A stretch of DNA of 33,415 bases, from assembly GCA_016932215.1 (NCBI GenBank), contig JAFGDH010000028.1, positions 1 through 33,415 on the forward strand. Reading direction: 5' to 3'. Below the pieces are notes generated by a model, which saw nothing but the letters and a program-made list of their open reading frames with translations, had not been told where the DNA came from and made no database searches. The stretch comes from Candidatus Aenigmatarchaeota archaeon (GTDB lineage Archaea > Aenigmatarchaeota > Aenigmatarchaeia > QMZP01 > QMZT01). How positions within the stretch are numbered: position 1 is the first letter of the stretch; every line of letters starts with the position of its first letter. The translations under genes were made by a program, and so were the position numbers. Positions 12,472-21,150 of this stretch are shown here, one piece after another.

Positions 12472-13485
12472 TTACTTATATTTTTCGGTCAGCTTAGTTC
12501 TTCTCAACTGGTCCAGATTCTTCGCCCCTACAAGCAGCATTGCTGTCTTGAGTTCAAAAATAATCTGTTCTATCCTTTCCTTCACGGCTTCCCAGCTCTT
12601 CGTTGCCGGTTTCAAAACCGGAAGCGCAAACCCGACTACCGCGGAACCCATCGCAATCGCCTTCGCCACATCGATGCCGTTCCTTATGCCCCCGCTCGCC
12701 ATCACAGGGATCTTTACCTTCGAGACAACGTCTTTAAGCGCTTCCGCGGTGGGTATTCCCCATTCCAAAAAATTGTCCATCTCCCGCTCGCTCCTGTAGC
12801 TGTCCACCTTTATCCATGAAGTCCCCCCGGCCCCGGACACATCTATCGCCTTGACCCCCGCCAGGGCCAGCTGTCGCGCGACGTCGCCGGATATGCCCGT
12901 TCCAACTTCCTTGACAAGCACCGGGAACTTCACTAAAGCCGTGAGATTCCTGATCTTCTGCAGTACGCCGGACCAGGCGTAATCCCCCTCATCCTGCGCC
13001 ATCTCCTGGGCCGGATTCAGATGGACTGCCAGACCGTCCGCCCCGATATTTTTCACCATCAGCCTGATCTTCTCGATATCATATTCAAATAACTGCATCG
13101 CCCCTATGTTCCCGAGGATCAGCGTGTTCGGCGCGACGTGGCGGACTTCGTAGGTCTTGATCAGTGACGGCTTCTCGAGCATCGCCCTTTGCGATCCCAC
13201 ACCAAATCCGATCCCGAGAGCCTCGCAGGCGAGCGCTATGTTCCGGTTGATCTTCTGCGCCTGTTCAGTCCCGCCGGTGATCCCGGTCACGAAAAGCGGA
13301 TAACCTAATCTCTTCCCGAGAAACCTGGTAGAGCAGTCGATCGCCTGGAAATCCACCTCAGGCAACGCCTTATGAAGGAATTCGTATCGCTCGAACCCGT
13401 TCCCCTTCATGTACTCGACATCCTCTTCAAGGCATATCCGTATATGATCATCCTTCCGCGATTTCGTCGTCTTCTGCTTGGGCAT
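12472..13485 (-). CDS. fni: Type 2 isopentenyl-diphosphate delta-isomerase (FMN-dependent)
   Basis: Interconverts IPP and DMAPP using reduced FMN, the last step of the mevalonate route before prenyl-chain synthesis. The protein is a TIM barrel of 337 residues, normal for Fni. FMN- and substrate-binding blocks are visible: FVTGITGGTEQAQKIN, the HLNPAQE segment carrying the catalytic Gln/Glu region, VKEVGTGISGDVA, IDVSGAGGTSW, and the phosphate loop MASGGIRNGIDVAKAI. It lies downstream of the isoprenoid genes on the same strand but has its own TATA box, so it may be expressed separately. Confidence 0.95.
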   Translation of the reverse strand: MPKQKTTKSRKDDHIRICLEEDVEYMKGNGFERYEFLHKALPEVDFQAIDCSTRFLGKRLGYPLFVTGITGGTEQAQKINRNIALACEALGIGFGVGSQRAMLEKPSLIKTYEVRHVAPNTLILGNIGAMQLFEYDIEKIRLMVKNIGADGLAVHLNPAQEMAQDEGDYAWSGVLQKIRNLTALVKFPVLVKEVGTGISGDVARQLALAGVKAIDVSGAGGTSWIKVDSYRSEREMDNFLEWGIPTAEALKDVVSKVKIPVMASGGIRNGIDVAKAIAMGSAVVGFALPVLKPATKSWEAVKERIEQIIFELKTAMLLVGAKNLDQLRRTKLTEKYK

Positions 13486-13500
13486 AATTAGTATTGAAGT

Positions 13501-13516
13501 GGATTATATAAAAAAC
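13501..13516 (-). promoter_or_regulatory. TATA box of fni
   Basis: On the minus strand TTTTTTATATAATCC is centred about 24 bases before the fni ATG. That distance predicts a leaderless transcript. Confidence 0.55.
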
Positions 13517-13527
13517 TTGGATCAGCC

Positions 13528-14034
13528 TCATCTAAAACAATCCATGAAATCCCCGGAAGTGACCAGTTTCCATTCATTCTCTTTGGCTATTTTGATTAGC
13601 TTGTCTTCTCTGGGATTAAATACAATCGGGTTTCTGGATTTTTCCATTATGATTCTATCTCCCATCGAATCGCCTATGGTGACATAATTATTCCCGAGAA
13701 GATCCGAAGCCATCCCCTTGTTTAATGAAGTCATGTAGAAATCCGGATGGGATCCAGTATACTTTCCATTTTCAATAGGTGATACTGATCCGAATGAAAG
13801 GGGGACATCCAGCCTTTTTCCAATTACATCTATTATTTCCATTGAACTTGCTGAAATTAGAACCGGCATTATCCCATTTCTTTTCAAATGTTCGATCGCA
13901 TCCGGAACGTTCTGATATAGTTCTATCCCTTCTATCGCGTATTCCGCCGCCTCAGCGACAGCCTCGGTTCTCTGCCATGCCAATCCGGATGAATGGGCTT
14001 TCGCCAGTTTTACGACTGCCTCATCCTGCGTCAT
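13528..14034 (-). CDS. HAD phosphatase, C-terminal part (second frame of a split gene)
   Basis: 168 residues. It has HAD motif II (Ser in LISAS), motif III (Lys in TSLNKGMASDL) and motif IV (GDSMGD), but lacks the nucleophile aspartate loop, which is in the overlapping ORF upstream. Alone it could not be an active phosphatase. The two ORFs overlap by four bases (ATGA), so coupled translation of two chains, a programmed -1 frameshift at the five-A run, or a simple frameshift mutation or sequencing error are all possible. Joined, they make one HAD-IB (SerB-like) enzyme of about 245 residues. It is last in the ubiD-ipk gene run. Confidence 0.75.
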   Translation of the reverse strand: MTQDEAVVKLAKAHSSGLAWQRTEAVAEAAEYAIEGIELYQNVPDAIEHLKRNGIMPVLISASSMEIIDVIGKRLDVPLSFGSVSPIENGKYTGSHPDFYMTSLNKGMASDLLGNNYVTIGDSMGDRIIMEKSRNPIVFNPREDKLIKIAKENEWKLVTSGDFMDCFR

Positions 14035-14264
14035 TTTTCCTGATTGATATTTTTCTTGTCTACCTGTAGTGTTTCGTAAACATCCGTCCTAAATAGCCCG
14101 TTTTCCAGAAGAAAATCCATTAAGGTTAATTCTGTTATTCCGTCCACTATCGTATTATCTACGTCTATGAATGCCTTGCGTTGGGATACCGTTCCGTTTC
14201 CATACCTTTGCAATATTGAACTAGGATCACCTTCTCCGTAGTATCTGTTCCAAGTACTCGGCAT
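14031..14264 (-). CDS. HAD phosphatase, N-terminal part (first frame of a split gene)
   Basis: 77 residues carrying the HAD nucleophile motif DVDNT (Asp34 nucleophile, Asp36 acid/base, Thr38) and the first cap helices, then a stop at the four-base overlap with the next frame. The reading frame continues naturally into the downstream ORF if one base is slipped at GGAAAAATG. It starts 24 bases after ipk, so it appears part of the isoprenoid transcript. The substrate is unknown; a small phosphorylated metabolite is typical for this branch. Confidence 0.7.
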   Translation of the reverse strand: MPSTWNRYYGEGDPSSILQRYGNGTVSQRKAFIDVDNTIVDGITELTLMDFLLENGLFRTDVYETLQVDKKNINQEK

Positions 14265-14288
14265 ACCTATTATTCAAAAATAACCTTT

Positions 14289-15089
14289 TTATGCTTTGAT
14301 CAACGTGCCCTTCACTTTCTTCCCTTTCAGCGCCTTCTCCACGTTCCCGGCCCTGCTGGCGTTGATGAACTGGGAACTGATCCCCAGCTTTGCTAGCGTG
14401 ATCATCTCGCTGACCTTGAGGAACATACCTCCCGTCACGTCGACGGAACTCGACCCTGTCAGGCCGTTCTTGATCTTTCTCCAGTCTTCCAGCGTGATCT
14501 CCTTAATCAGCTTCGCCTTCCTGCTCCTTTTCGGATCTGCCGTGTATATCCCATCGACATCGGTCGCATGGATGATCTTGTCCGGTTTCAGTTCTTTCCC
14601 GATCCACGACATGATCATGTCACCGGAAAGGATGGAGCATTTCTGCTTCGTGTCGACCGCCGGGACGCCGTAGAGGACGGGAACCATCCCTATCTTTAGA
14701 AGCTCCTTCACCCCGTCTAGGCACATGTGCTTCAATCGGATGTTATGCATCACCGCGGTGGACGAGGCGAGGATGGGTATGGCCGGTATCCTCTGGCTCT
14801 GGAGGGATTCCGTTACCATCGCATTGAACCTGTTCTGGACCGTCTGGGTCTCGGCGAAATCGACCAGCTGCTTGGAATTACGGATGCCTTTGTGTATCTT
14901 GTTCTTGTGAACCATGTGATGGCCGAACGAACCGGCTCCGTGGATGAGAATCAGCTTCATCCTCCTCGGGTTGTATCCCTTTCTTATTTCCTTTGAAAGC
15001 CGGTTTATGGCCTTCCTGTTCTCGGTGAACGCCTTTTTCTTGTCCGTGATAACCGATCCGCCGATCTTCAGAAGCACGAGGTCTTTCAT
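14289..15089 (-). CDS. ipk: Isopentenyl phosphate kinase
   Basis: Phosphorylates isopentenyl monophosphate to IPP with ATP, the step that follows decarboxylation in the archaeal mevalonate pathway. It belongs to the amino-acid kinase fold: Lys8-containing LLKIGGSVITDK, and GAGSFGH with the catalytic His57 that distinguishes IPK from other kinases of the fold. A DVDGIYTADP segment and TDVTGGM-type loop (SSVDVTGGMFLK) bind nucleotide. 266 residues is normal. It follows the Nudix gene by 30 bases on the same strand. Confidence 0.95.
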   Translation of the reverse strand: MKDLVLLKIGGSVITDKKKAFTENRKAINRLSKEIRKGYNPRRMKLILIHGAGSFGHHMVHKNKIHKGIRNSKQLVDFAETQTVQNRFNAMVTESLQSQRIPAIPILASSTAVMHNIRLKHMCLDGVKELLKIGMVPVLYGVPAVDTKQKCSILSGDMIMSWIGKELKPDKIIHATDVDGIYTADPKRSRKAKLIKEITLEDWRKIKNGLTGSSSVDVTGGMFLKVSEMITLAKLGISSQFINASRAGNVEKALKGKKVKGTLIKA

Positions 15090-15119
15090 TATATTAGTTT
15101 GAAAAAAGAGGTTAATAAA

Positions 15120-15503
15120 TTACTTCAAGAAAAGCTTGTTGATGATCTCAATCGCGTAAGGTGACAAATTCATTTTCTTCATCTGCCGGATAGTGAACCA
15201 TCCCAGTTCCTTCGCGTCGTCTCCCGGCCTGATCTTACCAGCGATTTCACCCTCAAAAGTGTGACATCGATGAATATCACCAATGTGCATTGAATGGGTA
15301 TGCCGGCATAACTTCTTCCCGATTTTCACTTCACCTAGCTCTTCCTTCGCCTCCCTTCTCGCTGCCTGTAACGGGCTCTCATTCCTCTTCACGTGTCCGC
15401 CGGGGATTCCCCACGTATCTTTCCACGGATTATGCCCTCTTTTTGCCAGAAGGATTTTGTCACCTTTTTTTACCAGTATGGCAGCGGTTTCGTGAACCAT
15501 CAT
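15120..15503 (-). CDS. Nudix hydrolase
   Basis: About 127 residues with a complete Nudix box: GGHVKRNESPLQAARREAKEELG matches G-x5-E-x7-REUxEE-x-x-G. It hydrolyses a nucleoside diphosphate linked to another moiety, or another diphosphate; the substrate is not readable. ATG 15503 is preferred since it overlaps the ubiX stop as ATGA with GAGGTG just upstream; GTG 15509 and ATG 15500 are alternatives. It is translationally coupled to ubiX inside the mevalonate gene run, so a role on a prenyl diphosphate or a flavin nucleotide is an attractive inference. It is unlike type 1 IPP isomerase: it has the catalytic Nudix Glu pair and is shorter. Confidence 0.88.
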   Translation of the reverse strand: MMVHETAAILVKKGDKILLAKRGHNPWKDTWGIPGGHVKRNESPLQAARREAKEELGEVKIGKKLCRHTHSMHIGDIHRCHTFEGEIAGKIRPGDDAKELGWFTIRQMKKMNLSPYAIEIINKLFLK

Positions 15504-16054
15504 TCCCACCTCTCGTAAAGGTCATTCTCTATTCCCAGCGTATCCAGTATCTTCCCTACAATATGATTCTCCATTTCGTCCAGGGATTTTGGCTTAGAAT
15601 ATAATGAGATAACCGGCGGAAGGATGATCCCTCCTGCCCTGGTGACCCTTTCCATGTTCTTTATGTGGATCATACTCAGCGGCGTTTCCCTGGTAACCAG
15701 AACCAGCTTCCTTCGCTCCTTCAGCATGACGTCCGCTGTCCTCAGAAGAAGGTTCTCTGAATATCCGCTTGCCACGCCGGCCAGCGTTTTCATGGAACAC
15801 GGGACGATGACCATCCCTTCTGTCTTGAATGAACCAGACGCGATGGAGGCAAATAAGTCCGAGTTATTGTGAAATTTTGTTGCAAGTTTTTCAACGTATT
15901 CCACTTTGTAGTCTGTCTCATGCTCTATTATCTTCTCTGCGATCTCTGTTATAATCAGATGGGATTCCCAACCCTTCTTTTTCAGGAACTCCAGCAGTTT
16001 TATCCCTAGAACGACGCCGGAACTGCCCGAAATCCCTACGACGATTTTAAGCAT
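15500..16054 (-). CDS. ubiX: UbiX-type flavin prenyltransferase
   Basis: Joins a dimethylallyl group to FMN, making the prenylated FMN cofactor needed by UbiD decarboxylases. 184 residues. The FMN-binding start VGISGSSGVVLGIKLLEFL, the PCSMKTLAGVASGYSENLLLRTADVMLKERRKLVLVTRETP block and the C-terminal GGIILPP are typical. It overlaps the small AcnX subunit by 8 bases and the Nudix gene by 4. Its presence beside ubiD supports a prFMN-dependent decarboxylation. Confidence 0.94.
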   Translation of the reverse strand: MLKIVVGISGSSGVVLGIKLLEFLKKKGWESHLIITEIAEKIIEHETDYKVEYVEKLATKFHNNSDLFASIASGSFKTEGMVIVPCSMKTLAGVASGYSENLLLRTADVMLKERRKLVLVTRETPLSMIHIKNMERVTRAGGIILPPVISLYSKPKSLDEMENHIVGKILDTLGIENDLYERWE

Positions 16055-16430
16055 GGTTCACTTCACCGTTGTCCGCGTCCACGACAATCTTGTCACCGGT
16101 CTTGATCCCGTCTATCTCTATGTGGTCTACGCACGGTATGCCGGCCAGGATAACGCCTGTCGCCACGATGGTCTCAGTCTCCCTGTTCACTATCGCCTTG
16201 GGAGCGACGCCGTTCTTCTTCAGGCCGTAGATGACGTACGAACCCACGGTCGAACCTTTCCCGCTGGGGAAGACGAGTATCTTTCCCTTGACGTTCTTCC
16301 CCTCGAGAGGATGGCCCTTCTCGATGACCGTTCCGGTTTTCGCGTCTATCCCCCCGTAGAATCCGATGGGCTCGCTGGAAACGATGGCTTCCCCTTCAAC
16401 CTTCCCTGGTGATATCATTCTTCCTTTCAT
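16047..16430 (-). CDS. Phosphomevalonate dehydratase, small subunit (AcnX small, DUF126)
   Basis: 127 residues of the swivelling aconitase-X small domain: it opens ISPGKVEGEAIVSSEPIGFYGGID and has the LVFPSGKGSTVGSYVIY segment, where the serine/glycine loop contributes to the active site. With the large subunit it dehydrates mevalonate 5-phosphate to trans-anhydromevalonate 5-phosphate (known for archaeal AcnX from the Aeropyrum pathway). The start overlaps the large-subunit stop by four bases, and the end overlaps ubiX by eight. Related AcnX proteins act on hydroxyproline derivatives, but the neighbours favour the mevalonate role. Confidence 0.92.
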   Translation of the reverse strand: MKGRMISPGKVEGEAIVSSEPIGFYGGIDAKTGTVIEKGHPLEGKNVKGKILVFPSGKGSTVGSYVIYGLKKNGVAPKAIVNRETETIVATGVILAGIPCVDHIEIDGIKTGDKIVVDADNGEVNHA

Positions 16431-17614
16431 ACCAACAACTCCTCAACAAGTTTTTCAACGTCCCTGAAAATGACTTCCTGCTTACAGAATCCAGGCAGGT
16501 AATTCGCAGCCTTCCCGGAATTCACCCCGGTCCTCTTGTATCCCATTTCCTCTATGGGCGAAACCACCATGCAGGTGTCAGCGACGATCCTCCCCCCGGC
16601 CTTACGGATTTTGAGGGTGTATCCGAGGTTGTCCGCTAGCTGCTTCATGGCGCGGGAGGTGCATATCCATAGCGGTTTTCCCAGCCTCTTCCCTTCCAGC
16701 AGTGAAGCGACGTACGCTATCTCCCGGATGGATGCATGCGGGCATCCCAGTATAGCGATATCCGGATTCTGCCCGGTATTAAGCGTTTCGTAGGTTTCCT
16801 TCTTTTCCTTATCGCCGAAATCAAACGTTTCCAGTCCTCCCCCAACCTGCGAATCAGCCTCGGGGGTCAGTCCGCTTACGTGATAAAGAGCGACGGCCCC
16901 GGAAGCGGCCATTGCCGCTCCCAAAAATTTCAGCTCATCCGTATTGGCGTCCCGTATGCCCTTGAAGAAAGGGATCCCGTTCTTCGCATGCTTGCCGGCC
17001 CAGTATCCCAGTGCACCGAAGTCGGAACTGGTTTTCAGTTCGGTATTAACATTGATCCGGATGGTAGCTTTCCTGTTCTCCTCCAGGTGAAGGCCGTAAT
17101 TCGGGGTCACACCGAGCAGCGCTGACGCCAAAGCCGATGGTCCGCCTTCCCTGTTGGTCCTAGCCCCGATAACGGAATTGGCGAAAGAGACAGCCGAAGA
17201 CTCGGACCATGCGATATGCTCCCGGAACCTCGGAAGGTTTCCCGCCAGGTACGGCGTGCACGTTGCGGTCGTGTTTATGCCCATGTCCCCGAAGGCCCGC
17301 ATTATCCTTATCTGCTTCTCAGCGAAATCCTTCGGGAATCCCAGTTCCTTCCAGTCCTTCATGTCCATTCCCGCGGGATTCAGGTAAGTGAGAACCCTGA
17401 CTTTCCCCCCCTTAGAAGCGATGTCCTCCAGAAAATCCAGCCCGGGATCACCTATCGATTTGTAAGAAACGCCAGCCACCTGGACGCTCCCGACAGGGAT
17501 CATTTTATCAGCGTTGTAAATCTCTCCCAATCGAACGAGCAATCTCATCTGCCTTTCGAGCACGTCCCCGTGCTCCCCGTTAAGAATGCTTTCCTCCTGC
17601 TTAGTGAGTTCCAT
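16427..17614 (-). CDS. Phosphomevalonate dehydratase, large subunit (AcnX large, DUF521)
   Basis: 395 residues from ATG 17614; a longer frame runs upstream into ubiD but GGAGGG lies six bases before this ATG and the family N-terminus (LTKQEESILNGEHG) starts here. Aconitase-X large subunits bind an Fe-S cluster. Cysteines in the TATCTPYL, ILGCPHASI and VADTCMVVSP segments are the likely ligands. GARTNREGGPSALASALLG and the G-x-x-G loops match the substrate pocket. It forms the enzyme with the adjoining small subunit. The gene begins one base after ubiD. Confidence 0.93.
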   Translation of the reverse strand: MELTKQEESILNGEHGDVLERQMRLLVRLGEIYNADKMIPVGSVQVAGVSYKSIGDPGLDFLEDIASKGGKVRVLTYLNPAGMDMKDWKELGFPKDFAEKQIRIMRAFGDMGINTTATCTPYLAGNLPRFREHIAWSESSAVSFANSVIGARTNREGGPSALASALLGVTPNYGLHLEENRKATIRINVNTELKTSSDFGALGYWAGKHAKNGIPFFKGIRDANTDELKFLGAAMAASGAVALYHVSGLTPEADSQVGGGLETFDFGDKEKKETYETLNTGQNPDIAILGCPHASIREIAYVASLLEGKRLGKPLWICTSRAMKQLADNLGYTLKIRKAGGRIVADTCMVVSPIEEMGYKRTGVNSGKAANYLPGFCKQEVIFRDVEKLVEELLV

Positions 17615-17615
17615 C

Positions 17616-18899
17616 TTATCCCTCCAAATAATCCTCAACATTAAGGTCCATCGGCAGACCCGGCTTTTTGAAATCCCCCGGATTCTTGCCTTCCGGTATC
17701 GTGAGATCAAACCCGATTTTACATGTTTCCTTTGTCTCGAGATTTGAGCTAGGGTCGAGGGAAGACCCCTTTTCTCCAGGTTTCATGACAATATCCTTGT
17801 CTCCCTGGAAGCGGGTCGCCATAGCCCATTCTATTTCATTCGGGTTGCTTATGTCGATGTCCTCATCCACGACGAAAACATGTTTCATCGATTTGTGGCC
17901 TTTGAACGCCGCTTCTATTGCCGTCTTCCCGTCATCCGGGTTTTTCTTCCTTATGCTCACCGCCCCGTGCAGCCATGAGCACCCCCCGGGCGTTATCAAT
18001 ACGTCCTTGCAGTCGCATACCTTGGAAACCTCCTGATAAATGGTGGGTTCCCTCGGCATGCCCATGAGGACCTTGTGTTCCAGTCCTCCCGGAAGAAGGG
18101 CGTGGAACATCGAATCTTTTCTTCTGAAAATCTTTTTTATCTTGAATACTCTCTGCTCTCTCACTATGTCAGGGGTTTCAGTAAGATCAAGGAAAGGTCC
18201 CTCCTTTGCCTTTCTCCCCGTGACTTCAGCTATCAGAACTATTTCCGTCTCCGGGATTTTGTGACCGGCCAAATCGATCAGTTTCGTTTCCCCGAAAGCA
18301 TTTGCTATGTCCAGTTCGCTTTTATCAACTTTAGTTGATATGGAAGAAGCGAGCATAACCGGAATCGTATTTCCGATGCATATCGCAAATTCCTTCAACC
18401 CCCTCTCCAGATAAGTGTTGAAATCCCTTTCAAGTATCCTCATCACGACCTCGTCCTTTCCAAGTATCATGGTCCTCTGGTATGATGCGTTTTGTCCGTA
18501 TTCCGGATCATTCGCGATAACTATGGAAGACGCTATATATGGTCCGCCGTCAAACGGATAATACGTCAGTATGGGTATCTTCGAAAGATCTGGTTCCATC
18601 TCTTCGTACCCTTCGGCACCAATTATTCCCGGAGGCTTCGGGTTTTCAATGCCTTCAATAAACTTTTTAAGCAGGTTTTCCTTGGTTGTTTCCAGACCAA
18701 GCGCAACCAGATCCTTGGTAGAACACACGTTCGCCACAACCGGCATCTCGTATCCCTTTACGTTCTCGAAAAGCAACGGCCTGCCATCCAGCTTTTTCAT
18801 GATCGTGGCTATCTCGTACTTAACATCAACAGGCTTCTTGATGTGAACAAGAAGACCCTTTTGATCAAGCAGATCAACAAATGCCCTGAGATTCATCAT
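17616..18899 (-). CDS. UbiD-family decarboxylase, probable trans-anhydromevalonate phosphate decarboxylase
   Basis: 427 residues of the UbiD fold, spanning the start LRAFVDLLDQKGLLVHIKKPVD, PLLFENVKGYEMPVVANV, the central NASYQRTMILGKDEVVMRI, EIVLIAEVTGRKAKEGPFLDLTE and the C-terminal FVVDEDIDISNPNEIEWAMATRFQGDKDIV block, whose acidic residues serve the prFMN active site. It is shorter than bacterial UbiD and in the range of archaeal homologues. Classical UbiD acts in ubiquinone synthesis, absent in archaea. Coupling to AcnX, UbiX and IPK assigns it to producing isopentenyl phosphate. It is the first gene of the run, with GAGGTGAT before the start. Confidence 0.9.
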   Translation of the reverse strand: MMNLRAFVDLLDQKGLLVHIKKPVDVKYEIATIMKKLDGRPLLFENVKGYEMPVVANVCSTKDLVALGLETTKENLLKKFIEGIENPKPPGIIGAEGYEEMEPDLSKIPILTYYPFDGGPYIASSIVIANDPEYGQNASYQRTMILGKDEVVMRILERDFNTYLERGLKEFAICIGNTIPVMLASSISTKVDKSELDIANAFGETKLIDLAGHKIPETEIVLIAEVTGRKAKEGPFLDLTETPDIVREQRVFKIKKIFRRKDSMFHALLPGGLEHKVLMGMPREPTIYQEVSKVCDCKDVLITPGGCSWLHGAVSIRKKNPDDGKTAIEAAFKGHKSMKHVFVVDEDIDISNPNEIEWAMATRFQGDKDIVMKPGEKGSSLDPSSNLETKETCKIGFDLTIPEGKNPGDFKKPGLPMDLNVEDYLEG

Positions 18900-19143: not shown

Positions 19144-20199
19144 ATGACTATAAAAGTTCCGATGCATGATGAAGTTCTGATGCCTATTAATTTGGGTAGT
19201 CCCCTGAGGTGTCCTTCCGAGGACTGGGATAAATACGGTATCAGCTGGGATACGGGTTCCGAATACATTACACTGATAAACGCTGGAAGATTCCAGTACC
19301 AGCTTGAATACGGTTCAGGCGATCCATCACAGCATGCCATAATTGGAAAGGCGTCTAAAAGAGCATTCGGCGGAAACGATAACAATCAGATTCTCAGGGA
19401 AGCGACCGGAAAAATGGTCGCTGCTTATCTTGACAGGAAGAAACCGGGAAAATACATTGTAGTTGATATTGGTTCCGGTTCCGGTTTGTCCGCAGAACAA
19501 ATGATAAAGAGCCTACCGAAGGATTTCAAAGGTGAGGTAGAAATCGTCCTTCTTGATGTTGCCCTAGGACCGCTTGAAGAAGCAAAAAAGTTGGTGGAAG
19601 GTTATGGATTAAGATGCGAAACGGCTAACTTGACCCAAGACCAGATACAGAATTATATGAAAGAAAGACAGGCAGACGTTCTTATGCAGGTCGGTTCGAT
19701 ACATCATGATCCTGCCATCCCGTTCGATACTTTCTATAAGGTTTTGAAGGATGGCGGAATACTGGTTTCTGGCGACTGGCATCCCCAGACATGGCAGGAA
19801 CCGTCTTATGTTTTACATATGCTTGAAGGAATGGAATGGCCCAGAAAAGAGGAAGGTCTTGACAATTACAGAAAAACGTATGGTGTTGAAGACAAATCCC
19901 TTCCGGACGACCCAAAGGACAGGAAGGCAATAACGGATATCTGGGAATTCTGGAGGCAGTATCAGGGAATGCTGGCTGAACAAGGAAATTTTGGCAATAA
20001 TTCAATATGGCCTCATGAAAGCCATCAGGATTCTAGGAGATATGTTGATAAGATGAACAGGGCAGGTTTTATCACACAAAATTCTGATGATGGCGAACTT
20101 GCCGAAATCCGTCAGGAATCAGGAATGGTTGAACCAATACATCTTTTTTATTATGACAGCTCAATAATCGCGGAGACCTCTGGAATAAAGAGGTTATGA
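19144..20199 (+). CDS. Class I SAM-dependent methyltransferase (unknown substrate)
   Basis: 351 residues. The Rossmann motif I is clear (VVDIGSGSG, Asp108 to Gly114), motif II ends in LLDVA, and a motif-IV-like DVLMQVGSIHHDPA follows, then GGILVSGDWHPQTW. The N-terminal 80 residues and a C-terminal 110-residue extension rich in Trp, Asp and Gln are not recognised; the latter may form the substrate lid. It separates mevalonate kinase from the ubiD-led run and lies on the opposite strand. Its A+T-rich codon use is slightly different from its neighbours, which could mean transfer, but this is weak. Confidence 0.75.
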   Translation: MTIKVPMHDEVLMPINLGSPLRCPSEDWDKYGISWDTGSEYITLINAGRFQYQLEYGSGDPSQHAIIGKASKRAFGGNDNNQILREATGKMVAAYLDRKKPGKYIVVDIGSGSGLSAEQMIKSLPKDFKGEVEIVLLDVALGPLEEAKKLVEGYGLRCETANLTQDQIQNYMKERQADVLMQVGSIHHDPAIPFDTFYKVLKDGGILVSGDWHPQTWQEPSYVLHMLEGMEWPRKEEGLDNYRKTYGVEDKSLPDDPKDRKAITDIWEFWRQYQGMLAEQGNFGNNSIWPHESHQDSRRYVDKMNRAGFITQNSDDGELAEIRQESGMVEPIHLFYYDSSIIAETSGIKRL

Positions 20200-20211: not shown

Positions 20212-21150
20212 TTACACCCCGATCCTTGTTTTCGTTGTCATGAACCCTTCTTTTTCGATTGCTTCCGCTACCTTGTCCTGGAGATCTTTTCCCGGCGTCA
20301 GGGCGATCACGTTCCCCCCGCGTCCGGTTCCGGTCAGTTTCGCTCCAAGTGCCCCGTTATCCTTCGCCACCCTGACGATTGTTTCGATTTCGTCACACGA
20401 AATCGTGGACTCCCTGAGAAGATCCTGGTTTTTATCGAAGAGTTCTCCCAGTTTCTTGAGGTCATGATCTCCCAGCGCCTTCTTCCCTTCTTCGAAAACC
20501 TGATCGTATTCCCTGAAAATCCTTTCATACTTTTCGGGTTCGGATTCCTTCGCTTTCCTTAGATCGGCGACCACTTCTTTGGTGCTCTGGGTTATTCCGG
20601 TGTTGGCTATAACGATTTCTATCGGTTCCTTGACAGTGATCTTCTCGATGAAATTCGGCCCGCCTTCCATGTTCTTCCGGAAGATCAATAAGCCACCGAA
20701 AGTGGCGCATGTATTGTCTATTCCCGAAGGCGTTCCAGCGGACGCCTTCTCCCCCTCGTACGATACTTCGTTTATCTTGTCGTCATCCATCCCAAGGTCA
20801 AAATATCCCGATAATGCCCGGGCGATCGCGGTCGACATGGCAGAAGATGATCCGTTACCGCTCGTGCAAACAAGCGTCCCGTCAAGAATTATTTTTATCG
20901 GGTTCTTTTCCAGGTCGATGTTGAGGAATTTGATCATGAGTTCGATTGCCTTGTATATCTCTTCCCTTTTTTTCTCCTTGTATCCGGGGGTCTCCGGACG
21001 GTTGTCGATGAGAGTGAACCCCTTGCCTTCACCCTTCTCGATTTTTGCCTTCACGTAATGTTCCATTGCCCCCGCGATTCCTGAGAGACCGTAAACGACA
21101 TAATGCTCTCCGAAAAGAATAACTTTGCCGTATCCGATGTTTTCAGCCAT
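20212..21150 (-). CDS. mvk: Mevalonate kinase
   Basis: Phosphorylates mevalonate to mevalonate 5-phosphate with ATP, entry to the pathway whose later enzymes lie at 12.5-18.9 kb. GHMP-kinase motifs are all visible: GKVILFGEHYVVYG at the N-terminus (substrate), the ATP loop CTSGNGSSSAMSTAIA around residues 95-110, GTPSGIDNTCATFGG with the catalytic Asp, and the C-terminal KLTGTGRGGNVIAL. 312 residues is typical for archaea. A GGCGGTGGT ribosome-binding site precedes the ATG. It is divergent from the RibL-like gene. Confidence 0.95.
   Translation of the reverse strand: MAENIGYGKVILFGEHYVVYGLSGIAGAMEHYVKAKIEKGEGKGFTLIDNRPETPGYKEKKREEIYKAIELMIKFLNIDLEKNPIKIILDGTLVCTSGNGSSSAMSTAIARALSGYFDLGMDDDKINEVSYEGEKASAGTPSGIDNTCATFGGLLIFRKNMEGGPNFIEKITVKEPIEIVIANTGITQSTKEVVADLRKAKESEPEKYERIFREYDQVFEEGKKALGDHDLKKLGELFDKNQDLLRESTISCDEIETIVRVAKDNGALGAKLTGTGRGGNVIALTPGKDLQDKVAEAIEKEGFMTTKTRIGV

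Follow-up and report, generated by a model that had tools for sequence, protein, structure and literature searches.

A small Nudix gene that starts on the stop codon of ubiX, inside a complete modified (archaea-type) mevalonate (MVA) gene run of a Candidatus Aenigmatarchaeota archaeon, belongs to a subfamily that sits beside MVA genes far beyond chance, in genomes of both pathway branches and independently of UbiX. The gene encodes an intact catalytic box on a predicted MutT-type fold, and homologous genes in several relatives are paired with a HAD phosphatase. We infer a substrate, a direction and a role from this setting and tentatively describe the product as a MutT-fold, MVA-dedicated Nudix diphosphohydrolase that probably acts on IPP/DMAPP-type substrates as a C5 flux valve, a description to which we give slightly less than an even chance. 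In the following, the window denotes the whole stretch of 33,415 nt that was analyzed (contig JAFGDH010000028.1, genome G000). The genes of interest form a minus-strand run at 12472-18899, with a mevalonate kinase further on:

17616..18899, minus strand: UbiD-family decarboxylase of the anhydromevalonate phosphate decarboxylase type (PF01977, PF20695, PF20696; TIGR00148 302 bits)
16427..17614, minus strand: AcnX large subunit, phosphomevalonate dehydratase L (AcnX_L; PF04412 522 bits)
16047..16430, minus strand: AcnX small subunit, phosphomevalonate dehydratase S (AcnX_S; PF01989 120 bits)
15500..16054, minus strand: UbiX flavin prenyltransferase (TIGR00421 260 bits against a cut-off of 108.9; alignments)
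15500..15503, minus strand: ATGA shared between ubiX stop and Nudix start (sequence)
15120..15503, minus strand: MutT-type Nudix hydrolase, 127 aa (Pfam NUDIX 68 bits, Nudix box, AF2 model, linkage statistics)
14289..15089, minus strand: isopentenyl phosphate kinase (IPK; NF040647 243 bits, cut-off 120)
13528..14264, minus strand: HAD-IB type phosphatase gene spread over two overlapping frames (ORF list; the second part matches TIGR01490/SerB weakly)
12472..13485, minus strand: type 2 isopentenyl-diphosphate isomerase (IDI-2; TIGR02151 389 bits)
20212..21150, minus strand: mevalonate kinase (MVK; TIGR00549 216 bits, cut-off 163)

The genes from UbiD through Nudix overlap or almost touch, and only 30 bp separate Nudix from IPK, so that an operon is likely. 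Both AcnX subunits, the UbiD-type decarboxylase, UbiX and IPK, which together mark the modified pathway, are present, and no DMD was found in the window genome in the search across the genomes of the phylum. On the minus strand between 14800 and 16300 (...GAATGATGG) the UbiX frame ends with GAA-TGA (15502-15500) and the Nudix ATG lies at 15503, which gives a four-base ATGA overlap. The original prediction had reported this overlap within the pathway run, and we confirm it; the Nudix gene, of MutT type, is intact and the modified MVA run around it is complete. The length of 127 aa is counted from ATG 15503; an alternative ORF start at GTG 15509 would add two residues only. We also observed that several Aenigmatarchaeota have a recurrent methyltransferase-domain protein close to their MVA genes (window 19144-20199, plus strand; L048:10676-11740, L089:8458-9489, L099:4938-5957).

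Membership of the Nudix superfamily is clear from PF00293 (NUDIX), which matches with 68 bits against a cut-off of 21. In the alignment the Nudix box G-x5-E-x7-REAKEELG is complete (G36, E42, R50, E51, E54, E55 and G57) and departs from G-x5-E-x7-REUxEExGU at the final position, where E stands in place of the expected hydrophobic residue. The AF2 model (pLDDT 93.7) shows a MutT-type fold with Z up to 18.4 against MutT folds. Its nearest solved folds are the nucleotide enzymes BdRppH, MutT and NudI, which counts against a prenyl-diphosphate substrate, and prenyl-diphosphate NUDX1 structures rank slightly lower; the match to AtNUDX1 (Z 16.4–16.6) is not specific, and fold comparison did not tell nucleotide from prenyl substrates. 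The best scores against curated nucleotide Nudix equivalogs of NCBIfam stay far below threshold (52.8, 41.3 and 29.5 bits versus cut-offs of 245, 156 and 148), the best of these sub-threshold matches being MutT/NudG-like. The missed cut-offs lower the label that the protein can be given, not its possible chemistry. The 1.14 Mb metagenome-assembled genome (MAG) holds nine Nudix genes, and over full length the window protein is at most ~33% identical to its paralogues.

A contig scan for homologues with the window protein alone as query gave no match. We give the results of profile searches in 156 Aenigmatarchaeota genomes, in which an individual absence carries less weight because MAGs are incomplete, but the overall pattern is not affected. 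The MVA-linked Nudix subfamily was defined here by a score of at least 130 bits against the A2 profile and a usual site no more than 3 kb from DMD, MVK or AcnX; the window Nudix scores 172 bits and lies 0.9 kb from AcnX_L. The broad alignment A2 itself showed no usable patterns; alignment A3 comprises Candidatus Aenigmatarchaeota MAGs and distant Nudix families. Counted per genome, the subfamily was found in 25 of the 156, DMD in 53, AcnX_L in 36, UbiX in 31, IPK in 61 and MVK in 86. Of the 25 orthologues, 18 have DMD, MVK or AcnX_L no more than 3 kb away, compared with 1 of 109 other Nudix genes from the same search (Fisher p 9e-16, without correction for relatedness). These 18 are spread over 15 genera and five families, and the gene orders vary (DMD-Nudix-MVK, Nudix-HAD-MVK, a HAD-Nudix fusion with MVK and IDI-2, UbiX-Nudix-IPK), from which it follows that the linkage is not one inherited block. 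The placement of the subfamily beside MVA genes is thus beyond chance, and the tie to isoprenoid metabolism in the original prediction stands. The remaining seven orthologues, one of them at a contig end, lie away from MVA genes, which counts against an MVA-dedicated reading.

The linked orthologues are mostly found with the classical pathway: 14 of the 18 belong to DMD genomes in which no UbiX, AcnX or IPK was found, three to AcnX genomes (the window, G097 and G031) and one to G002, with MVK and IPK, where no DMD, AcnX or UbiX was found. We read an apparent in-frame TGA in the G097 match as its terminal stop. Over the 156 genomes the presence of the subfamily is associated with classical-pathway DMD (17 of 53 DMD genomes, p 1.7e-4) and shows no association with UbiX (6 of 31 UbiX genomes, p 0.59). 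The best Nudix homologues, 36–48% identical, adjoin other MVA genes in genomes that lack AcnX, their neighbors being identified by NCBIfam and Pfam as the classical-pathway enzymes diphosphomevalonate decarboxylase, phosphomevalonate kinase and mevalonate kinase. In the subfamily tree few deep branches are resolved, and linked and unlinked as well as classical and modified cases are intermixed. As a separate observation, DMD and UbiX never occur together in any of the 156 genomes; classical DMD on the one side and modified-pathway AcnX/UbiX on the other exclude each other there, and the phylum is a patchwork of both MVA branches. Some MVA clusters that hold the first Nudix contain a second one of ~165 aa (L081:2393-2884, L082:2400-2897, L084:1646-2140, L090:7803-8288), which looks by sequence like a YfcD-type Nudix and not like a type 1 IPP isomerase (no Cys).

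The original prediction had assigned the Nudix to UbiX: it would convert DMAPP to DMAP, which UbiX would use to make the prFMN of the UbiD-type decarboxylase. The literature already suggests this role for several Nudix enzymes, E. coli NudJ among them (PMC12359138, citing Wang 2018), and the ATGA coupling to ubiX agrees with it. The genomic distribution does not: besides the lack of association with UbiX and the predominance of linked cases without it, 33 of the 36 AcnX genomes do not have this Nudix nearby, and among the three that do, it touches UbiX in the window alone, so that the conserved neighborhood with AcnX and UbiX that the assignment implied did not hold. None of 20 relatives with AcnX_L carries this Nudix between UbiX and IPK, and in G007, the closest relative with the same run (AcnX_L 69% identical), UbiX is directly followed by IPK. 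At the place of the window's Nudix, family f5 (L040, L041, L043, L044) has an opposite-strand gene of ~421 aa, which by eye looks like adenosylhomocysteinase.

The assumption of a typical need of UbiX for DMAP is also out of date. PaUbiX (F181) is DMAP-specific, while fungal and E. coli K-12 UbiX require DMAPP and the O157 enzyme (H164) accepts either, DMAPP giving more product; the residue at this position is not the sole determinant of donor choice (PMC6541611). In the window UbiX, His164 aligns with Pa F181, An Q203 and O157 H164, and His is also found in UbiX of the window's family and of family f5. As this is the residue of the dual-use O157 enzyme, and bearing in mind that it is not decisive by itself, the window UbiX may well use DMAPP directly, which IDI-2 of the same run would supply. 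The other two AcnX genomes with this Nudix nearby, G031 and G097, have the Phe of DMAP-specific PaUbiX, which favors DMAP supply there, but Phe is equally usual in UbiX of other archaea without this Nudix alongside (15 of 20). We considered whether the residue at position 181 tracks Nudix linkage and found no signal. On co-occurrence and linkage across the 156 genomes we reject UbiX feeding as the main role, and we regard it as improbable that the Nudix exists for this supply; a side role in the window genome, with DMAP for UbiX as a possible by-product of Nudix activity, is all that survives of the assignment.

A further feature of the subfamily is its pairing with phosphatases. Members of one HAD family, 25–44% identical to one another, adjoin the Nudix in G011, G039, G108 and G117, and in G133 a HAD of the same family is fused to it (L180:6225-7376) directly before MVK and IDI-2. 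An HD-domain protein adjoins the Nudix in G125 and lies nearby in G015. In E. coli, stepwise removal of both phosphates is reported for NudB with AphA, Agp or YqaB acting after it (PMC6058358), and by analogy the archaeal pair is compatible with the same sequence of steps. The HAD gene of the window is of a different class and split, which counts against such a pairing in the window itself. Its two frames (13528-14264, minus strand) share an ATGA; the 77-aa part carries motif I and the 168-aa part motifs II–IV. The split may reflect a frameshift, a fault of the assembly or genuine translational coupling.

The same data bear on three further explanations. That the Nudix is an ordinary nucleotide house-cleaning enzyme or NTP pyrophosphohydrolase (MutT, RppH or NudG-like), co-transcribed with MVA genes by chance, agrees with the nucleotide enzymes that are closest to it in both sequence and fold and with its sub-threshold family matches. 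However, no nucleotide equivalog cut-off is reached, and a chance neighbor would hardly explain linkage of 18 of 25 versus 1 of 109 in varied orders, or the HAD fusion and pairing; we consider this explanation unlikely, if still a serious one. Linkage and HAD pairing would be accounted for just as well by a longer prenyl diphosphate (GPP, FPP, GGPP or polyprenyl-PP) that is converted to the monophosphate or, together with HAD, to an alcohol such as geranylgeraniol. Plant NUDX1 bound to geraniol or GPP is among the structural matches, and NudB also takes GPP and FPP (PMC6058358), but the neighbors are C5-stage enzymes and no adjoining prenyltransferase or lipid gene was identified, which makes this substrate class quite unlikely. 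The type 1 IPP isomerase (IDI-1) is itself a Nudix protein, and an IDI-1 with a CCSHP or CCTHP motif sits in MVA clusters of some relatives (L102, L179) and in the AcnX region of another archaeon (L225). The window protein lacks the active-site Cys motif in the alignment and matches neither TIGR02150 nor PRK03759, L102 and L179 contain IDI-1 alongside the Nudix, and IDI-2 is present in the window; identity with a diverged IDI-1 is ruled out on these grounds and deserves next to no credence.

We return to a pathway-dedicated diphosphohydrolase. The Nudix would serve the MVA pathway of Aenigmatarchaeota whichever branch is used. Since 14 of the 18 linked orthologues occur in DMD genomes, the substrate is sought among products of both branches. 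The diphosphates common to the two are IPP, DMAPP and longer prenyl diphosphates, and most likely the enzyme would remove phosphate in a metal-dependent reaction from IPP and/or DMAPP to give IP and/or DMAP. That Nudix enzymes can do so, as the original prediction stated, is documented for E. coli NudB, NudF, NudI and NudJ (PMC12359138, PMC6058358). In the window operon IPK would re-add the phosphate, and the Nudix/IPK pair would act as a flux valve resembling the plant IPK/Nudix cycle, DMAP that reaches UbiX being a side benefit; in several relatives the adjoining or fused HAD phosphatase would carry dephosphorylation on to the alcohol. The counteraction by IPK that had been foreseen thus has a precedent in plants (PMC6779861), but it does not extend to most orthologues, whose genomes have no IPK that was found. 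In these classical-pathway relatives IPP hydrolysis would be pure loss, which argues against the valve.

Outside the phylum we covered the surroundings of AcnX in 55 more archaeal genomes, most families being represented once, and found no free-standing Nudix of the window subfamily. What we observed there is an AcnX_S with a C-terminal Nudix domain (L211:8171-9088, L237:3378-4199, L238:6139-6915 and L253-L277), a fusion kept by 59 of the 61 genomes sampled from one other archaeal order, the two misses being MAGs of 78–79% completeness. Pfam detects both domains in all three fusions tested, and the strict catalytic pattern G-x5-E-x7-RExxEE is present in 21 of 23 aligned fusion proteins (the row of the unfused window AcnX_S excluded). 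The fused domain, for which a phmmer search of the PDB gave no match, is a second Nudix domain separate from the window subfamily. Two genomes of archaeal family f38 carry a longer Nudix of another type ~1 kb away from AcnX_S (L201:5117-5689, L251:3160-3711). It is conceivable, though in our estimation rather doubtful, that archaeal MVA metabolism recruited a dedicated Nudix arm at least twice and independently, as neighbor or HAD fusion in Aenigmatarchaeota and as AcnX_S fusion elsewhere, which would hydrolyze or sense IPP/DMAPP and set C5 flux, with UbiX, where present, drawing on the DMAP formed.

Literature searches that joined aconitase X with Nudix (subscription journals mostly outside their scope), or Nudix and prenylated FMN with dimethylallyl monophosphate, yielded no publication. 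The DMAP-for-prFMN proposal and the plant IPK/Nudix cycle are already known (PMC12359138, PMC6779861); new are the physical tie of the subfamily to archaeal MVA genes of both branches, its HAD fusion and the separate AcnX_S-Nudix fusion. Should the proposed function prove correct, a Nudix dedicated to the pathway would control or recycle the C5 isoprenoid pool of archaea; up to now, such regulation has been described chiefly in plants and for promiscuous enzymes of E. coli. The finding also bears on the source of the prenyl donor of archaeal UbiX, and in the AcnX_S-Nudix fusion, a directly testable protein, a Nudix domain is coupled to one of the key steps in the modified pathway.

Compared with known systems, the window run resembles archaeal modified MVA operons (AcnX/PMDh, UbiD-type decarboxylase, UbiX, IPK) in that the lower-pathway genes lie in one run, whereas the Nudix comes in addition and lies near AcnX in three of the 36 Aenigmatarchaeota genomes that have AcnX. 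MutT/BdRppH type nucleotide Nudix hydrolases provide its best fold and sequence matches, but the window Nudix stays below threshold for all curated equivalogs and is genomically linked to isoprenoid genes. Like E. coli NudB, NudF and NudJ, which act on IPP and DMAPP (PMC6058358, PMC12359138), it is a small stand-alone Nudix for which the same conversion of DMAPP/IPP to DMAP/IP is proposed; those enzymes are described as promiscuous, while the archaeal gene is physically tied to MVA genes and in relatives to a HAD phosphatase. In plants AtNUDX1 and AtNUDX3 together with IPK set terpenoid flux (PMC6779861), and the putative opposing arms on the IP/IPP pool as well as the fold are shared with the window pair. 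In contrast to the plant enzymes, to which the window Nudix is only 17–18% identical, the archaeal pair lies in one operon, its activity is predicted, and most orthologues belong to genomes in which no IPK was found.
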